Assembly (NCBI GenBank): GCA_016201275.1
Contig: JACQDB010000138.1
Location: 124,001-188,000 of the forward strand
From: Acidobacteriota bacterium
GTDB lineage: Bacteria; Acidobacteriota; Blastocatellia; UBA7656
Reading direction: 5' to 3'
DNA: 64,000 bases
The notes below the pieces were generated by a model. That model did no database searches. It saw only the letters and a program-made list of their open reading frames with translations, and was not told where the DNA came from. Numbering within the stretch: position 1 is the stretch's first letter; every line of letters starts with the position of its first letter. This document shows, one piece after another, positions 9,126 to 21,961 of the stretch. The position numbers and the translations under genes were made by a program.

Positions 9126-9950
9126 ATGAGGACTATGAAGACAGTTTATCCATTTGCAGAACAGGGCAATTTTACGCAGCAACATAACCTCACCTATGAC
9201 GTTATGATGCGGATGCTAAGCCCTTCGGCATGGATGATCCTTTGCTTCATCCTCAGAAACACGAAAGGGTTTCACCGGGAAAAAGTACCGCTCTCTTATA
9301 CCGACTTCCTGGAAGGAACCAGCATTAAAAGCTTCTCCACGATCAAAAAAGCCATTGATGAACTTCTGGATTCCGAAACCCCTGAGAATAGGCGAAACCC
9401 GTTTATCACCTTTCAAGGCGGCGATACTGGCAAGAACTGGAAGGCTGCGGAGTACGGGTTAAACCGAGAATTCAAGGTTGAAATAGCTACTACAGAAACT
9501 GTAGCAGGTTCTGAAAAAGCTACTACAAAAACTGTAGCAGGGGCTACTACAGAAACTGTAGCAGGTTTTGAAAAAGCTACTACAGTTTCTGTAGCACATG
9601 ATAAAGAAAGTAAGAAAGAAACAAAGAAAAAGAAACTTCTTGTTTTTTCCGTCACCGATCCTCTTGAGCGAGTGATAGCCGAAGAATGCAATTTGAATCC
9701 CGATAACTTGACGAGAGGCCAAAAGGAAGAGATCGAAAAAGTTGTTCTTTGGCTGCACCAGGAATACGACGCAAGTCTTGAACAGAAGTATCCCGATGCT
9801 GAAAAGCGAAGCCGGGTGATGATGAATCACGTGCGGAAATTTGGCAGTTGGCACCGCGAGGTTGAATGGAAAGGAAAATCACCTCGCCCAAGATGGCTCA
9901 GAGAAAAATGGGAATCCTTTCGCAAATGGATTCGCAACGGCAAAAAGTGA
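9126..9950 (+). CDS. replication initiator with internal iteron origin (lambda O-like)
   Basis: 274 residues. The N-terminal 110 residues match the winged-helix DNA-binding domain of phage O/DnaD-type initiators (LTYDVMMRMLSPSAWMILCFILRNTKGFHRE...LSYTDF). Residues about 121-157 are a low-complexity repeat (ATTETVAG type) because this stretch of DNA is four iterons. The C-terminal domain (about 180-274) would contact the helicase or its loader. The start may be 9126 or 9135; the second has GAGGA at short spacing. It lies directly upstream of the zinc-finger gene and dnaB, the order initiator-loader-helicase. Confidence 0.75.
   Translation: MRTMKTVYPFAEQGNFTQQHNLTYDVMMRMLSPSAWMILCFILRNTKGFHREKVPLSYTDFLEGTSIKSFSTIKKAIDELLDSETPENRRNPFITFQGGDTGKNWKAAEYGLNREFKVEIATTETVAGSEKATTKTVAGATTETVAGFEKATTVSVAHDKESKKETKKKKLLVFSVTDPLERVIAEECNLNPDNLTRGQKEEIEKVVLWLHQEYDASLEQKYPDAEKRSRVMMNHVRKFGSWHREVEWKGKSPRPRWLREKWESFRKWIRNGKK
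9486..9595 (+). repeat. four 20-bp iterons (putative origin of replication)
   Basis: Copies at 9486-9505, 9519-9538, 9543-9562 and 9576-9595, spaced 33/24/33 bp. Consensus GCTACTACAGAAACTGTAGC, itself a dyad (CTACAG-AAA-CTGTAG). Copy 2 has one change, and copy 4 has the central AAA replaced by TTT, i.e. that core is inverted. They are followed by a 54-bp A-rich purine tract (9597-9650), a likely unwinding region. The whole set is inside the initiator gene, as in bacteriophage lambda. Confidence 0.75.
9597..9650 (+). other. A-rich purine tract, putative DNA-unwinding element
   Basis: 54 bp, almost purely A/G on the + strand up to 9635, then turning to a T-run. It adjoins iteron 4 and encodes a Lys-rich linker in the initiator. 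Position and composition match the AT-rich unwinding region that flanks lambda iterons; unwinding itself is inferred. Confidence 0.55.
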
Positions 9951-9956
9951 GAACCA

Positions 9957-10229
9957 ATGGAGTCAATCAAAGAGATTCAGGATTCAGTATTGCCAGGCGG
10001 TCACTCGGTGCGCCAGCTTCTGAAACTCGCCGAGCGGATGGCAGCGCGAGCGCCGAAGACCGACGAGCGGTGTCCCGATTGCCGGGACACCGGATGGATT
10101 CACGTTGAACCGGACGATCCGCAGCGCGGCGTACGCCGCTGCCGACGCCCGGAATGTGTGGCGAAGCGCAGGGCGGTCATCGAAGCCCGGCGAGAGGCTC
10201 GACAACAGGAAGGAGACGAAGATATTTAA
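9957..10229 (+). CDS. zinc-finger protein in the helicase-loader position
   Basis: 90 residues. The middle has CPDCRDTGW and then CRRPEC, the Cys arrangement found at the N-terminus of DnaC/DnaI-type helicase loaders (CxxCxDTGW...C..C), but the AAA+ ATPase domain of such loaders is absent. The C-terminus is a basic, charged helix. It starts 7 nt after the initiator and its stop overlaps the dnaB start (TAATG), so translation is coupled. It could be a minimal loader or an adaptor between initiator and DnaB (inference). Confidence 0.6.
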   Translation: MESIKEIQDSVLPGGHSVRQLLKLAERMAARAPKTDERCPDCRDTGWIHVEPDDPQRGVRRCRRPECVAKRRAVIEARREARQQEGDEDI

Positions 10230-11584
10230 TGGGCGTACTCTTGCCAAAATCGAATAGCGGTGATCCGTTTATTGAGCGCGGGCTGCCGATAAACCTTGAG
10301 GCGGAGCGTACCATACTCGGCGCGATCCTGCTCGATAACGCGGTCTGCAATCAGGCGATGGAATTGATGCGCCGCGATGATTTCTTTCTCGACTCCCACC
10401 GACGAATTTACGACAAGATGGTTTTCCTGCACGAGCGCGGCTCCTCGATTGACCTGGTCACGCTGTCGGAAGAATTGCGCCGCGCACAGGAGTTTGAGCA
10501 GGTTGGCGGCGCGACCTATATCGCGTCCCTGATTGACGGTGTGCCGCGCACCGACACCATCGAGCCGTATGTCAAGATCGTCAAATCCAAAGCCCTCAAA
10601 CGCAAAGTGATTACCGTCTCCCAGCACCTGATCAACCAGGCGTTCGGCGAAGAACTGGAAGACGAGCAGCTTCTCGACCTGGCGCAGCAGCAGATTTTCG
10701 GAGTCGTTGAAAACCAGGTGCGCGGTCAGTTCCGCCTGGCGATTGATGTTGCACAGGAGCAGATGGAGAAGGTGCAGGAACTGGCCGGACGCAACGTACT
10801 GATTACCGGGGTGCCGACCGGTTTTACGGATTTCGATCATTTGACCTGCGGTTTGCAGAAGCAGGATTTGATTATCCTCGCCGCAAGGCCTTCCCTAGGG
10901 AAGACGGCGCTTGCTCTCAATATGGCCGAATCTGCGGCGCACAACAACGCTACGGTTGGCATCTTCAGCCTGGAGATGTCTGCCGAGCAACTCGTCCTTC
11001 GCCTGATCAGTTCCTACGCCCGCATAGACGCACACCGGCTCAAGAATGGCTATCTGACCGCCGAAGAGTGGGCGCGGGTTGCCAATGCGCTCCGGCAGTT
11101 AGCCGAGCACAAAATCTACATTGATGACACGCCGGGGATAACGGTAGGCGAGATGCGCGCCAAAGCCCGAAGGCTTAAGGCCGAACACGGTCTTGATCTG
11201 GTGATTGCCGACTACATCCAGTTGATTACCGGTCGCGGCAAAGTTGAGAACCGCACCCAGGAGGTATCACAGATTTCCCGCGACCTGAAACTATTGGCAA
11301 AGGAACTGGACGTGCCGGTAATCGCGCTCTCACAACTTTCGCGCAAGGTGGAAGAGCGCAGCGATCACCGACCGCAACTCAGCGACCTGAGAGACAGTGG
11401 TGGAATTGAGCAGGACAGCGATCTCGTCTGCTTCATCTATCGCGATGAAGTATATGGCGAGACCGATGAAAACCGAGGGGTGGCGGAGTTAATCATCGCC
11501 AAGCAACGCAACGGGCCGACGGGCAAAGTATCGCTTTGCTTCCTGAAGGAATACACGAGGTTTGAAAACCTCTGGCGGGAATAG
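10229..11584 (+). CDS. dnaB: replicative DNA helicase DnaB
   Basis: 451 residues, normal length for DnaB. The N-terminal primase-interacting domain (residues about 18-120, NLEAERTILGAILLD) is followed by a linker and the RecA-like domain with Walker A AARPSLGKTALAL (about 218-230), Walker B LVIADYIQLI, and the DnaB motif SQISRDLKLLAKELDVPVIALSQLSR...DLRDSGGIEQDSD. The start ATG at 10229 overlaps the preceding stop; the longer frame from 10154 lies inside the upstream gene. It supplies the element's own hexameric helicase, presumably loaded at the iteron origin. Confidence 0.95.
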   Translation: MGVLLPKSNSGDPFIERGLPINLEAERTILGAILLDNAVCNQAMELMRRDDFFLDSHRRIYDKMVFLHERGSSIDLVTLSEELRRAQEFEQVGGATYIASLIDGVPRTDTIEPYVKIVKSKALKRKVITVSQHLINQAFGEELEDEQLLDLAQQQIFGVVENQVRGQFRLAIDVAQEQMEKVQELAGRNVLITGVPTGFTDFDHLTCGLQKQDLIILAARPSLGKTALALNMAESAAHNNATVGIFSLEMSAEQLVLRLISSYARIDAHRLKNGYLTAEEWARVANALRQLAEHKIYIDDTPGITVGEMRAKARRLKAEHGLDLVIADYIQLITGRGKVENRTQEVSQISRDLKLLAKELDVPVIALSQLSRKVEERSDHRPQLSDLRDSGGIEQDSDLVCFIYRDEVYGETDENRGVAELIIAKQRNGPTGKVSLCFLKEYTRFENLWRE

Positions 11585-12344: not shown

Positions 12345-12929
12345 ATGCCGAAATACGAAGACGCTATTCTGGTTGCCAATCGTCTCGTCGAACAGATGCG
12401 TCCGTTCTGCGAGCGTCTGGAGATTGCCGGCAGTTTGCGCCGCCGCCGTCCGGTGGTGAAAGACATTGAAGTGGTGGCCATCCCAAAATGGGAAGAGCGC
12501 CCGGATGTAACCAATCTTTTTGCAGAACCCAAACTCGTCAACCTGCTGTTTGAAGACTGGGCAAACCAGCAACAGATGGTTGAATGGATCAAGCCCGGCA
12601 CCGATGAGTTGATCGCCTGGCGCGTGCAGCCAGCCGGCCTCTACTGGCGCGGTATCTTCGCCGACGGCACGAAGCTCGACCTGTTTTTGACAACGCCGGA
12701 AAAGTGGTCAGTGATCTTTACCATCCGAACCGGGTCGGCGGAATTTAGCCATGAGCTGGCGACCTGGGCGAAACTCAAACGGCATACGCCGATTGAGAAT
12801 GGACGGATATTGAATTATGGCAGGCCGGTTGAACTGGCCGACGAGCGTGCGGTTTTTGACTACCTTGGCCTCCAGTGGGTAGAGCCTGAGCAACGGACGG
12901 GCAAAGAGGCTATTAGGCCGAAGCGATAG
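12345..12929 (+). CDS. stand-alone PolX-type nucleotidyltransferase
   Basis: 194 residues from the ATG at 12345. GSLRRRRPVVKDIEVVAIP near residue 29 carries the pol-beta superfamily signature (GS, then DIE as first metal ligands), and ADGTKLDLFL supplies the third acidic residue. The end (GRILNYGRPVELADERAVFDYLGLQWVEPEQR) matches the thumb of PolX. The 8-kDa/fingers domain and PHP domain of bacterial PolX are absent, so this is a palm-thumb core similar in size to viral PolX. It may fill short gaps or act in repair for the element. Confidence 0.75.
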   Translation: MPKYEDAILVANRLVEQMRPFCERLEIAGSLRRRRPVVKDIEVVAIPKWEERPDVTNLFAEPKLVNLLFEDWANQQQMVEWIKPGTDELIAWRVQPAGLYWRGIFADGTKLDLFLTTPEKWSVIFTIRTGSAEFSHELATWAKLKRHTPIENGRILNYGRPVELADERAVFDYLGLQWVEPEQRTGKEAIRPKR

Positions 12930-12942
12930 GTGAATTACTTCA

Positions 12943-13479
12943 ATGTCAGAAAAGATTCAGACAATGGAAGAAGGGCGACGGCTGCTCAGGGAAAACTGGC
13001 AGAAAGGTATTCCCTGCCCTCTCTGCACCCAACTGGTCAAGCTCTACCGTCGCAAGCTCAATTCGCAGATGGGACGCGCGCTGATTTTAATCTATCGCCA
13101 TCAGGCCAACGATAGCCGTATTACGTGGCTTGATGTGAATGCCTTCCTGCTCAAGTGTGGCATCAATTCCGGCGAAGCCAATGTCGCGCTGCTGCGACAC
13201 TGGAACCTACTTGAGCGCAAGCCGGAGCGAAAGGCCGACGGCAACAATGCTGGTATGTATCGCATTACGGAATTGGGTTGCCGGTTTGTCCGCGGCGAAA
13301 TCGCGGTGCCGAAATACATCTTCCTGTTCAACCAGAAGCTCTATCAAACCTGTGACCCGGTTGAACAGATTACGATCCGACAGGCGCTCGGTCAGAGGTT
13401 CGATTACGCGGAGTTGATGACAGAAGCAGGGGTCAGGCCGATAGTAAGTAAACAGGAAACCAATCTGCGCCTGTTTTAA
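12943..13479 (+). CDS. winged-helix-like phage protein
   Basis: 178 residues. It begins with a zinc knuckle (CPLC, about residue 25) and then a winged-helix-like region: MGRALILIYRH, ITWLDVNAFLL, ALLRHWNLLERKP, GMYRITELGCRFVRGE. The last part (VPKYIFLFNQKL) is beta-rich. The pattern recalls phage proteins of unknown function with the same order (from memory). No catalytic motif is visible. It lies in the replication operon after the PolX gene; a DNA-binding role is inferred. Confidence 0.55.
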   Translation: MSEKIQTMEEGRRLLRENWQKGIPCPLCTQLVKLYRRKLNSQMGRALILIYRHQANDSRITWLDVNAFLLKCGINSGEANVALLRHWNLLERKPERKADGNNAGMYRITELGCRFVRGEIAVPKYIFLFNQKLYQTCDPVEQITIRQALGQRFDYAELMTEAGVRPIVSKQETNLRLF

Positions 13480-13862: not shown

Positions 13863-13898
13863 GAAGGCGGCTCAATCAACGACAAGGAGAAAACGAAG

Positions 13899-14423
13899 AT
13901 GTCCTGGACTGAAGCAATCGAAGTAAAAACCATTGCCAAACGCCTAATTGGTGAGCGCCATACGCATCTGGCGGATGTGCATATCGAATATCTTTTTGCG
14001 CTTGAGCCTCTCGCTTCAAAAGGTAAGGAGATTGACGGAGAGGTAAAGAAGGTCAGCGGCTTGAATGCCTATCTTGCCAGTCTGGCGCTGGAATTTGATG
14101 GCGATGAATTTGTGGCAATCATCATCTCGAAATCCGCTTGGGATTTATACAGCGAGTCGCAGCGCGAAGCCTCAATTGATAAGCGCCTGTGCGAAATTCG
14201 ACTCAGCGACAAGATGAAGATTCAGCTCGTCGGCCCTGACGCTCATGCCTATTACGCCAATGTCAGAATCTATGGCGACTGGGAACCTGATCTACAGACC
14301 CTCCGCAAGTTGTTTAAGCAGCCTCTGCTTCCCCACGTTGAAGGTCCAAAGGGTAAGAGCAAAGCGGTGTCGGTGAAAATCACAACTCCGAGGTTGAATA
14401 AACAGGCAGCGGCAAAGGAGTAA
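13899..14423 (+). CDS. phage metallopeptidase-family protein, active site lost
   Basis: 174 residues that follow the putative phage metallopeptidase family: HLADVHIEYLF, GEVKKVSGLNAYLA, FVAIIISKSAWDLYSESQREA, then the site where the family has a DHELCH zinc motif. Here that site reads DKRLCE, so all three HExxH residues are replaced. The later WEPDLQTLRKLF matches the family end. The fold is therefore probably kept while zinc peptidase activity is lost. CAAGGAG lies before the ATG. Family assignment is from memory of the pattern; its true target is not known. Confidence 0.6.
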   Translation: MSWTEAIEVKTIAKRLIGERHTHLADVHIEYLFALEPLASKGKEIDGEVKKVSGLNAYLASLALEFDGDEFVAIIISKSAWDLYSESQREASIDKRLCEIRLSDKMKIQLVGPDAHAYYANVRIYGDWEPDLQTLRKLFKQPLLPHVEGPKGKSKAVSVKITTPRLNKQAAAKE

Positions 14424-15932: not shown

Positions 15933-16040
15933 ATGAAAAAACGAGAGCATTATCACTACGGCGTTTTTATCTGCCCTGAATGCGGCAAGGCTGGCGGGCA
16001 GCATGGCGATGATTGCACGGCGATGATTGCACGGCGATGA
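15933..16040 (+). pseudogene. zinc-knuckle gene broken by 14-bp tandem expansion
   Basis: From the ATG at 15933 the frame gives 35 residues with CPECGKAGGQHGDDC, then a stop inside a tandem repeat. If two 14-bp repeat units (28 bp) are removed, the frame runs on to TGA at 16129-16131 as a normal acidic C-terminus (GVGIEDKQQRENQMLAALTD). So an expansion of 28 bp shifted the frame. It is either a broken gene or a slippage switch. AGGGAAAGG lies before the ATG. Confidence 0.55.
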
Positions 16041-16055
16041 TTGCACGGCGATGAT
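16005..16055 (+). repeat. 14-bp tandem repeat, 3.6 copies
   Basis: Unit GGCGATGATTGCAC at 16005-16018, 16019-16032 and 16033-16046, with a 9-bp partial copy at 16047-16055. The copies are identical. Because 14 is not a multiple of three, each gain or loss changes the reading frame of the gene that holds it. Confidence 0.9.
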
Positions 16056-16142
16056 GTTGGGCGTTGGCATTGAAGATAAACAGCAACGTGAAAATCAGAT
16101 GCTTGCGGCCTTAACCGATAGCGACGATTGAAAGGAAAGTGT

Positions 16143-16358
16143 ATGGACGAAGAGCTTTTGTATCTCTGCCAGGACGTTGATATGGCAGCAAACGATTGCA
16201 ATCGATTTGGCGGCAATGTTGCTTATGAGGCGGAGCGAAAGAATTTCGATTATGTTAATGCCAATATCGAGCAGGCGATTGCCAGCGCAAAAAGTCTAGT
16301 CGCCCGTCTCGACTCGCTGAAACGATTTGTTCAATCGCATTCTGAATTATCGAAATGA
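16143..16358 (+). CDS. small helical protein, unknown
   Basis: 71 residues from the ATG at 16143 (AAAGGAAAG upstream). It is acidic at the N-terminus and helical throughout (IEQAIASAKSLVARLDSLKRFV suggests a coiled coil). Its end overlaps the start of the DUF1064 gene by 4 nt. No known family. Confidence 0.5.
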   Translation: MDEELLYLCQDVDMAANDCNRFGGNVAYEAERKNFDYVNANIEQAIASAKSLVARLDSLKRFVQSHSELSK

Positions 16359-16783
16359 GTAAACGCGGGCTGAAACTGAATAATGCGCTGGTCAAACAGC
16401 TTCGTAAGCAGGGCTTGAATCAGGAGCTACTGGCGCAAATTAAGCCCGCGGGTTCCAAGATGCGCAACCGGCACACGGTCGTGGACAACATCACATTTGA
16501 TAGCAGGCTGGAAGCCGCCCGCTATCAAGACTTGAAAGTTCTTCAGCAGGCTGGTCGCATCAGCGAGCTGAAGTACCATGTGGTCTTCCACCTGGTTGTG
16601 AACGGAATCCAGATTGGAAATTATGAAGCCGATTTCACTTATCGCGAAGCAGGTGGCCTTGTCATCGAGGATTGCAAGGGACAGCGGACGCCGCTTTACG
16701 TCATCAAGAAAAATCTCATGAAAGCGCTCTATGGAATAGAGATTGTTGAGATTGTCGCGTCACGGTGGAGGAGAAACCGGTGA
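16355..16783 (+). CDS. DUF1064 nuclease-like protein
   Basis: 142 residues. The signature block of DUF1064 is present: FDSRLEAARYQDLKVLQQAGRI, then YEADFTYREAGGLVIEDCKGQRT and KKNLMKALYGIEI. The fold is that of PD-(D/E)XK Holliday-junction-resolvase-like nucleases: E in SRLEAARY, D in ADFTY, and E-x-K in EDCKG are the expected active residues. These phage proteins may cut branched DNA; activity is inferred. It is coupled to the gene before it by overlap (ATGA). Confidence 0.8.
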   Translation: MSKRGLKLNNALVKQLRKQGLNQELLAQIKPAGSKMRNRHTVVDNITFDSRLEAARYQDLKVLQQAGRISELKYHVVFHLVVNGIQIGNYEADFTYREAGGLVIEDCKGQRTPLYVIKKNLMKALYGIEIVEIVASRWRRNR

Positions 16784-20228: not shown

Positions 20229-20591
20229 ATGAGCGTACAACAGGCAAACGTACTCGTTGAGTTTTATGAAGGAATTATTGAAAAGGCACTCAGGCGCGTG
20301 CTTGATGAGCGCCATGCCTTATTTCCTGCCACCGATCCAGAACTTGCCGGTCAGATAGCCAGGATTAACGCCAAACCGAATATCACGGTGCTGGAGGCAG
20401 CGTTGTTGCTGAACTGTTCGGACTCCCACTTATACGCAAAGATCAAGGCCGCCAAAAGGAAGACAACCGGTTACCCAATTCCCTTCCTTGATCTGGATGG
20501 GGTGTACGTTTTCCCCAGGGAACGGCTCATTGAGTGGGCGGAAAGCGAGAAAGAGCGAAAGACCTTGAAATTGGAAAAGGGAGGTGCTTAA
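20229..20591 (+). CDS. excisionase-like helix-turn-helix protein
   Basis: 120 residues with AGGTGAGG before the ATG. Residues about 50-110 form a MerR/HTH_17-type winged helix of excisionases: ITVLEAALLLNCSDSHLYAKIKAAKRK, then IPFLDLDGVYVFPRERLIEW. A helical N-terminal extension (1-45) is unusual for Xis proteins. It ends 40 nt before the integrase start, so it is the likely directionality protein for that enzyme (inference). It may also regulate the integrase gene. Confidence 0.7.
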   Translation: MSVQQANVLVEFYEGIIEKALRRVLDERHALFPATDPELAGQIARINAKPNITVLEAALLLNCSDSHLYAKIKAAKRKTTGYPIPFLDLDGVYVFPRERLIEWAESEKERKTLKLEKGGA

Positions 20592-20631
20592 CTATGCGCC
20601 GTCTCCGACCGCTCCCGAAAGGAGAGCGTGT

Positions 20632-21861
20632 ATGACTGTTTCAAAACGAGGTAAAGATGGCATTTGCTCTGTCGTATTTCAGATCGAAGGGCAAACCCAT
20701 TGCTTCACATTCAATGGCAAGAAAGGAATGCCGCTGATCACGGATAAGCGGCTGGCAAAAGAAAAGGAGGTCGAACTCAAGAAGCAGATTCGCATGGGCA
20801 CGTTCCTACAGGAATCGCCCGTTCAGAACTTCGGGCGGTTCTACAAGGAAGTCTTCATGCATTACTCGAAGGATTACAAGTCGGAGTTGGGCCAAGACTT
20901 CGACGAGTATTACGGGCGGCGGCTGATCGAGGAATTCGGCCATCTGAAGTTTTCGCAGATTACGCCACGCCAGATCGAACGGTTTCTGATGAACTTGGCG
21001 AAGACCAAGACGAAGCAAGGAAGACTGTTTGCGCCGGTGACGGTCCGAATGTTTTACGAACGCCTTAACCGGACGTTTAACCTGGCGCGGCGCGAGCGGG
21101 TTTTCCTGGGCGAAAACCCCTGCCGGATGGTCAACGCCGAAATTCTCAAGAGCTTTCCGACCTGGCGTCCGAGGGAGAGATGGCTAAATCAGCACGATGA
21201 TGAAGAGGAGCAAAAGCTCTTCAACGAACTCAGTCCTGTTCTTTCGCCTTTGTGCCGTATCCTCCTTCATACCGGCCTCCGTCCGCCGAAGGAGATCCTG
21301 TTGATGGAAAAAGATCACGTAAATTTGACGGACAAGGTGCTGCGTTATAAGGGCGATAAGATGAAAATGATTCCTCCTCATTCTGTGTTCGTCGCCAACG
21401 GCAAGGATGGCACGACCCGCATGGTTCCCTTGAACCAGACGGTCAGGCGCATCTTTGAAGTGCTGGTGGGCGACGAAACGACCGGTCGATGGTTGTTTGC
21501 CAAAAACGGCCAGCCGATCAAATCCATCAAGAAAGGTTTTTCGGCGGCCTGCGAACGGGCCGGAATTGAAGACCTGAGGCCGTATGATCTGCGCCATACT
21601 TTCGCAACGCGCCTGGTCGAGCGCAATGTGCAGACAATCATCATTTCAGAGTTGCTCGGTCACACGCAGCCATTACAGGGCTTCGGTCATGCGTCTCGTA
21701 TCACCCCGGGCTATGCGCACGCGACCTATGACGCGATGCGCCGGGCGGTGGATTCGCTCGAATATCCGCCGCAAATCACGGCTTTCGAGCAGATGTCGAG
21801 CAAAAATCGAGCAAATGACCATGAGGTTGAAGTCGGAAATCAGATCGTGAAGGCAGGATAA
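20632..21861 (+). CDS. int: tyrosine recombinase / integrase
   Basis: 409 residues from the ATG at 20632 with AAAGGAG upstream. N-terminal arm-binding and SAM-like domains (about 45-165) are followed by the catalytic domain: first Arg in HTGLRPPKE (R217), [10 protein letters not shown] (R321, H322), ELLGHTQ (H344) and the nucleophile Tyr in GYAHATYD (Y361). Where many integrases have HxxR, this one has YDLR. A short insertion (LQGFGHAS) separates the LGH and Tyr motifs. The stop is 28 bp from the 3' end of tRNA-Val(GAC), which identifies the likely attachment site. Confidence 0.9.
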
Positions 21862-21888
21862 GTGTTTGGGATACTTGAAAAGGAAAGA

Positions 21889-21961
<73 letters not shown>

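Follow-up and report, generated by a model that had tools for sequence, protein, structure and literature searches.

Can a protein that belongs by descent to a family of phage metallopeptidases still serve its phage once the zinc site is gone? This question is raised by one open reading frame of the window (the whole 64,000-nucleotide stretch of DNA that was analysed), which the first-pass annotation had assigned to such a family while noting that the expected zinc motif was absent.

Family assignment and prophage context

The window protein matched PF18894 with 59.3 bits against a cut-off of 23.7 (E 5.6e-16), over residues 2-135 and profile positions 2-129 of 134. Since this score lies above Pfam's own cut-off, the assignment to a phage metallopeptidase family is right, as the first-pass annotation had it. 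With KRLCE and PDAHAY in place of the usual motifs, the protein is thus a PF18894 member by descent and not by presumed activity. It is the single PF18894 match in the 6.84-Mb source genome, and the codon-position GC of the reading frame resembles that of neighbouring genes. A sequence search of solved structures returned two matches, both with E above 1, and no relative.

The gene lies in a prophage inserted in tRNA-Val(gac). The 56-bp repeat at its end (Table 1) indicates an integrated element at C46:42519-145935, of about 103.4 kb and ending beside the integrase; it covers window positions 1-21935 together with G000:C46:42519-124000 (loci L172-L176). A terminase large subunit and tail (fibre) proteins were present among the 25 of 65 matching families listed for the prophage, and neither capsid nor portal was found among these 25. 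The integrase, attachment repeat, terminase and tail proteins mark the gene as being of phage or prophage origin, and it sits in the replication region of the prophage. The neighbouring phrog_2693 protein matched 228 distant phage records by tblastn, 221 of them from mycobacterial phages; used as a bait for related prophages, it found no relative in viral_contigs.

Table 1. Features of the prophage part of the window
Feature	Position	Strand	Evidence
Replication initiation protein, O-like (weak)	9126..9950	+	phrog_18020 E 1.3e-7; PF04492 below cut-off
Replicative helicase DnaB of the prophage	10154..11584	+	PF03796 E 2.5e-109, PF00772 E 3.1e-29
Neighbour with DNA polymerase beta thumb domain	12363..12929	+	PF14791 E 8.3e-11
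Neighbour, phrog_2693 protein of unknown function	12943..13479	+	E 1.1e-33
Ribosome binding site region (AAGGAG) ahead of ATG	13882..13898	+	sequence
Motif-less PF18894 (PhageMetallopep) protein, 174 aa	13899..14423	+	Pfam 59.3 bits; alignments; AlphaFold2 model
Codons 95-99, K R L C E replacing H E L C H (expected zinc ligands and catalytic glutamate)	14181..14195	+	H95, E96, H99 in 127/127 relatives
Codons 113-118, P D A H A Y replacing H D x E E F (expected third-ligand region)	14235..14252	+	alignment
DUF1064 / Holliday junction resolvase-like protein	16355..16783	+	PF06356, phrog_190
Tyrosine integrase at prophage end	20584..21861	+	PF00589 E 1.7e-18
Attachment-site repeat, 56 bp, identical to G000:C46:42519-42574; overlaps 3' end of tRNA-Val (21890-21961, -)	21880..21935	.	

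Some further features of the prophage were observed. The O-like replication protein contains in-frame ATTETVAG-like repeats (window 9486-9629), and a tandem repeat with a 14-bp period (GCACGGCGATGATT-like) occupies window 16001-16055, ahead of an ORF at 16128. Among 29 prophage ORFs (L172, L173, L175 and L176; alignment A10), GTP cyclohydrolase I, QueC and radical SAM matches occurred in one ORF each, which suggests a 7-deazaguanine pathway and possibly DNA modification. In the same 29 ORFs a PAPS-reductase domain was seen in three, ParB in two and SNF2 in two.

Loss of the zinc-binding pocket

The metal-ligand and catalytic roles of the residues in HExxH-type motifs are established for zincins. 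We use "HExxH member" for a relative that keeps this motif, its activity being presumed. Where such relatives mostly read [VI]DHELCH, the window protein reads IDKRLCE. The first-pass annotation had described DKRLCE in place of a DHELCH-type site, with all three critical residues replaced, and the alignment agreed: K, R and E occupy positions at which all 127 distinct aligned HExxH relatives have H95, E96 and H99. The loss turned out to be broader than first described, since the downstream HDxEEF segment reads PDAHAY. H113, present in 126 of the 127 relatives, is replaced by P, and E116 (91%) and E117 (87%) by H and A.

These 127 relatives are what remained of 144 matching loci once length limits had been applied and identical proteins, as well as the loci of the window itself, had been taken out. 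Of the loci behind them, 124 came from two scans whose single patterns spanned the site, so that the "invariant" pocket is partly a sampling effect; K and R were nevertheless permitted by both patterns at the first two positions. HMM and tblastn searches, part of whose hits were read, were freer of this motif bias.

We then compared the pocket with the rest of the protein. In a reduced set of 91 HExxH rows, 21 positions were conserved in at least 80% of the rows, six of them in the pocket and 15 outside. The window protein keeps none of the six pocket residues and 12 of the 15 others, and this pocket-specific loss is not a matter of chance (Fisher p ~0.0016). The surrounding segments are thus still conserved, as had been proposed at first pass. 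R124, F118 and L92, which HExxH members conserve, are altered in the window protein too. The 91 HExxH rows keep a median of 14 of the 15 non-pocket sites, and 14 of these rows keep no more than 12. Outside the pocket, the window protein thus falls within the range usual for HExxH members, near its lower limit.

At the nucleotide level, codons 95, 96 and 99 require at least 2, 3 and 2 changes, and the six pocket codons together at least 12 from any codon for the usual residue, in a frame that is open and without a stop. This combination argues against sequencing error as well as against recent decay. A sequencing error or frameshift was rejected also because the homology extends without a change of frame from one side of the site to the other and because five of the six pocket codons need at least two changes, one of them three. 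Nor has the motif moved elsewhere in the protein, an outcome that would have spoken against the first-pass reading: the only histidines are at 21, 23, 28, 116 and 146, and C98 is the sole cysteine. With all expected zinc ligands and the catalytic glutamate lost, the window protein should not be a zinc peptidase of the usual kind.

Predicted fold

The AlphaFold2 model of the window protein, built on a 16-sequence alignment, had a mean pLDDT of 80.2. By ten-residue blocks, pLDDT was 83-97 up to residue 110, 64-80 at residues 111-140 and below 50 after residue 141. The best matches among solved structures were selecase, projannalysin and proabylysin (Z 7.4-8.5), followed by SPRTN (Z 7.1) and other zincins. 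The top Z of 8.5 spans 101 residues and is a middling value, in the range that the tool warns about. Foldseek alone gave poor scores, with a best E of 0.075 for the window model and 0.05 for that of the HExxH member L026. The L026 model (pLDDT 89.4) yielded a list similar to that of the window protein (selecase 6.7-8.4, projannalysin 7.7, SPRTN 7.4-7.5). The fold of the window protein is thus predicted to be still zincin-like, although the HExxH homologues in its alignment draw the model towards the HExxH fold. Structure prediction, which the first-pass annotation had suggested as a check, gave a zincin-like model, with Z up to 8.5.

Search for close relatives

The search of viral_contigs found nothing close to the window protein. 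The phage records gave four distant Bacillus phage matches and the plasmid records three distant Bacillus plasmid matches, none of them close. Matches occurred in 12 of 396 genomes of the phylum and in 7 of 162 genomes of the class, the source genome included in both counts, again with none close. The PF18894 proteins above the cut-off that were read from the genome searches all keep HExxH, the window protein excepted. The weak hits L014, L015, L016 and L019 were left out of the family; L016 and L019 have an HExxH, and L015, whose printed frame lacks one, looks like a false hit. Two scans were designed to avoid the motif bias: A7 gave three loci, all on already-known contigs, and A8 two, one of them new (L162); the four loci read of these five have HExxH. 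The tblastn matches to phage and plasmid records numbered 73, 4 and 3 in overlapping sets. Twelve records were read, chosen for spread, and 11 keep HExxH, the exception being L179.

A second clade without the motif

L179, a 485-kb uncultured phage (LR745208.1), lacks HExxH, and its protein scores 70.2 bits for PF18894. Used as a query against 50,697 phage records (E 0.01), this protein found its own record and two Bacillus phages only; with so few matches there, the clade around it derives almost entirely from IMG/VR contigs, and several of these contigs may be fragmentary. Three scans with patterns placed away from the site gathered 12 distinct sequences (L188-L191, L196, L197, L201, L202, L204-L206 and L210) on viral contigs of 31-485 kb, and all 12 lack HExxH. 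Five of the clade contigs exceed 150 kb, one of these being a second contig with an identical protein.

The clade keeps 12-15 of the 15 non-pocket sites and, within the pocket, H95 only (12/12). E96, H99 and H113 are lost, and position 113 is P in 12 of 12, as in the window protein. We estimated dN/dS by the Nei-Gojobori method, without a significance test, and obtained 0.22-0.56 in the 22 of 66 pairs with dS below 1.5, and 0.19-0.36 over the conserved part in six pairs. Values this far under 1 indicate purifying selection on proteins with a dead site. Of the dN/dS comparison across relatives that the first-pass annotation had proposed, the clade thus provided an answer, and the window gene had no close relative found with which to make it.

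The clade has a recurrent place in its genomes. A Toprim primase gene lies upstream at 11 of the 12 loci, within ~300 bases at nine, and a clamp-loader gene downstream at 11, within ~120 bases at seven and 0.6-4.6 kb away at the rest. Moreover, a clamp-like gene is present at nine of 12 loci, and NusG-like and sigma-factor genes follow at seven. These neighbours were identified with Pfam and PHROGs at L206, L210 and L196; at the remaining loci, tblastn comparison with L206 and L210 was used. The locus without the primase, L193, starts 826 bases upstream of the gene, and L192 has no clamp loader in the sequence searched. The Toprim, clamp and clamp-loader proteins had no match outside the clade contigs at E 1e-4, with the window and the fetched prophage stretches included in the search; more distant ones would be missed at this threshold.

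A replication context is not peculiar to the dead forms, since HExxH members often lie among DNA genes too. In the 95 of 181 ORFs listed from 15 loci around HExxH members, Pfam matches included DNA methylase (4), RecT (3) and DnaB (1), with primase-type domains seen in one ORF each. Upstream of the PF18894 gene of Bacillus phages rho14 and vB_BteM-A9Y lies a gene annotated as DNA primase, which ends ~1.2 kb before it.

One loss or two

The clade resembles the window protein in being PF18894 and in having lost E96, H99 and H113, the last to P. It differs in keeping H95, in its N-terminal half and in its usual place beside primase and clamp loader. We compared the two in trees that included six of the 12 clade sequences; trees of 139, 137 and 136 columns left within-family details mostly unresolved. 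The larger, quick tree had 98 rows, five having been dropped beforehand (L012, L013, L084 and L147 because their branches were long, L051 because its frame was overlong); the careful tree used 52 hand-chosen rows of these 98.

A single ancient loss, with the window protein a member of the motif-less clade and perhaps a product of recombination in the C-terminal half, has some arguments in its favour. All 12 clade members share P113 with the window protein, and residues 84-135 mildly prefer the motif-less model (33 bits, against 22 and 18 for two HExxH groups). Holding the window protein and the clade together was 1.94 log units worse in the careful tree (AU p 0.44) and 10.29 log units better in the quick tree (AU p 0.674), so that one clade was not rejected. 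However, the motif-less clade gives 12 bits for residues 1-83, against 75 bits from HExxH members of the GLNA type, and residues 119-140 show no preference for the clade (5.7 bits, against 9.3 and 11.2 for the HExxH groups). Moreover, the careful tree, computed without the pocket columns, places the window protein in a 30-row set whose other rows are all HExxH (95/90) and sets the six motif-less rows apart (100/100), and H95, kept in 12 of 12 clade members, is lost in the window protein. We thus regard a single loss as unlikely. The window protein most likely lost its site independently of the motif-less clade, and, a separate clade having the same kind of loss, inactivation probably occurred twice. 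On whether the loss is shared by a clade, a point raised at first pass, the answer is therefore divided: no close relative of the window protein that would share it was found, and the same kind of loss is present in a separate clade. PF18894 contains at least two forms without the motif, and the window protein is one of them, which is new.

A putative binding protein of phage replication

We favour, with a probability of about 60%, that the window protein is a pseudopeptidase that has kept the PF18894 zincin fold, has lost the ligands and works by binding a partner of the replication machinery. It is homologous to proteins with a peptidase motif and has lost the residues needed, as expected of a pseudopeptidase. 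With the pocket erased, the protein would lack the usual zinc binding or cutting, and a shell with a groove would remain. The former substrate groove, or the surface around it, may hold a protein from the DNA-replication machinery of the phage or the host, in which case the window protein would contribute to phage DNA replication as a scaffold or binding component. We infer here the expression, the protein binding and the membership of the partner in replication. Judging from spacing only, K95 and E99, which are one helix turn apart, could form a salt bridge that takes over the structural role of zinc. The first-pass idea of a pseudo-enzyme kept for another purpose agrees with the erased pocket, the conserved remainder, the open frame and a dN/dS below 1 in the second lineage. 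Binding of the old target, its suggested example, did not gain support, as we found no known target of the family. A PF18894 pseudopeptidase is probably maintained in this prophage.

Some points weigh against the favoured reading. The branch of the window protein remains long when the pocket columns are left out (1.47-1.56; medians 0.57-0.65), which fits relaxed as well as changed constraint. The altered R124, F118 and L92, the modest pLDDT and Z values of the model and the lack of a match to the clade's Toprim, clamp and clamp-loader proteins in the window and the fetched prophage stretches point the same way. This long branch, the single copy and the failure to find a close relative are what one would expect if the peptidase was no longer needed after integration and the gene is drifting into decay. 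We consider this improbable, since the pocket rate of at least 12 changes in 18 bases, applied gene-wide, predicts more than 300 substitutions, with a chance of ~1e-6 of meeting no stop (crude Poisson), and 12 of 15 conserved non-pocket sites would hardly survive such drift. A regulatory role, in which the dead copy occupies a target or blocks an active PF18894 protein or other zincin of the host or of a rival phage, is quite unlikely, if a shade less so than decay. It would agree with the fold kept in the prediction and with a role known for pseudopeptidases, according to the parts of a review at hand (PMC11266112). Against such a decoy, the genome has no second PF18894 copy, and the frames of at least 60 codons in window 1-22000 contain one HExxH, in a 65-residue frame on the reverse strand. 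The pocket might also have been rebuilt, with D94, C98, E99, D114 and H116 as a new metal or catalytic site. Indeed, C98, E99, D114 and H116 lie in the former pocket region, and D94 and D114 are conserved family-wide. C98 and D114 are nevertheless common among HExxH members, which leaves E99 and H116 as the new residues, and these are absent from the motif-less clade, where 12 of 12 differ. To our knowledge, no zincin has a ligand set like these five residues, and a rebuilt site appears very improbable.

The window protein, together with the separate motif-less lineage near DNA-replication genes, suggests that phages reuse the PF18894 fold for binding rather than for cutting. A wider proposal, which we find doubtful though worth stating, is that PF18894, originally a peptidase, was converted on two or more occasions to a non-catalytic part of the replisome: it would have become fixed with Toprim primase and clamp loader in one phage lineage, some members of which are very large, and the same switch, including H to P, would have happened independently in the window prophage. 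If this were true, the PF18894 fold would serve to hold peptides and, as an adaptor, would link primase, clamp loader or host factors to one another.

Comparison with known proteins

PF18894 members such as those of Bacillus phage rho14 and Pseudomonas phage vB_Pae_LC3I3 resemble the window protein in family, length, predicted fold, conserved non-pocket residues and phage context; its six pocket residues are replaced, whereas the members read outside the motif-less clade keep HExxH. Selecase, projannalysin and proabylysin, known as minigluzincins, are the best fold matches of the window model. In contrast to these, the window protein has no zinc site, and the likeness is at the level of the fold only (8-14% identity). 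The protease domain of SPRTN, a SprT-like protein of DNA-protein crosslink repair, resembles the window protein in predicted fold and DNA-linked context. The window protein lacks its zinc ligands, and cutting of DNA-protein crosslinks by PF18894 has no support here.

A precedent is offered by ArdC, a zincin-domain protein, in which, in the portion of the source at hand, the metal-site glutamate was not needed for the effect on conjugation (PMC7213743). This makes ArdC an example of a mobile-element protein with a zincin domain that can dispense with its peptidase activity. In contrast to ArdC, whose metal site is intact and whose ssDNA-binding domain is separate, the window protein consists of a single short domain followed by a tail of low model confidence. 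The available parts of a review in which the word "phage" is absent describe binding as a frequent mode of action of metallopeptidase pseudoenzymes (PMC11266112). In the passages at hand, a survey of jumbo phages mentions SprT-like and ArdC-like peptidases and no inactive ones (PMC7824862), and a Burkholderia phage study names a PF18894 protein a putative metallopeptidase without a test (PMC12860723). The portions available of the literature on phage metallopeptidases and PF18894, on pseudoproteases and on phage pseudoenzymes contained no account of a PF18894 pseudopeptidase, and, as far as these sources go, phage pseudopeptidases seem little described. The case is marked by a clear contrast between the erased pocket and the kept shell, together with a second conserved lineage that recurs beside replication genes. 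It offers a way to ask what PF18894, a family widespread in phages and with no tested function found, binds, since dead forms should hold the partner uncut.

Two minor observations concern other PF18894 genes. In gammaproteobacterial phages (L178, L181-L184 and L186), a gene of similar size comes directly after the HExxH PF18894 gene; it carries the annotation DUF2280 in L182, L183 and L186, and the arrangement is unlike that of the motif-less clade. Finally, many phage records, and PHROGs as well, give PF18894 genes the label "transposase" (hits H3, H10, H24 and H50; phrog_513), and that of Pseudomonas phage Medea1 is labelled "toxin, HicA family"; these labels look wrong, since the genes of this family that were read among them carry a metallopeptidase motif.
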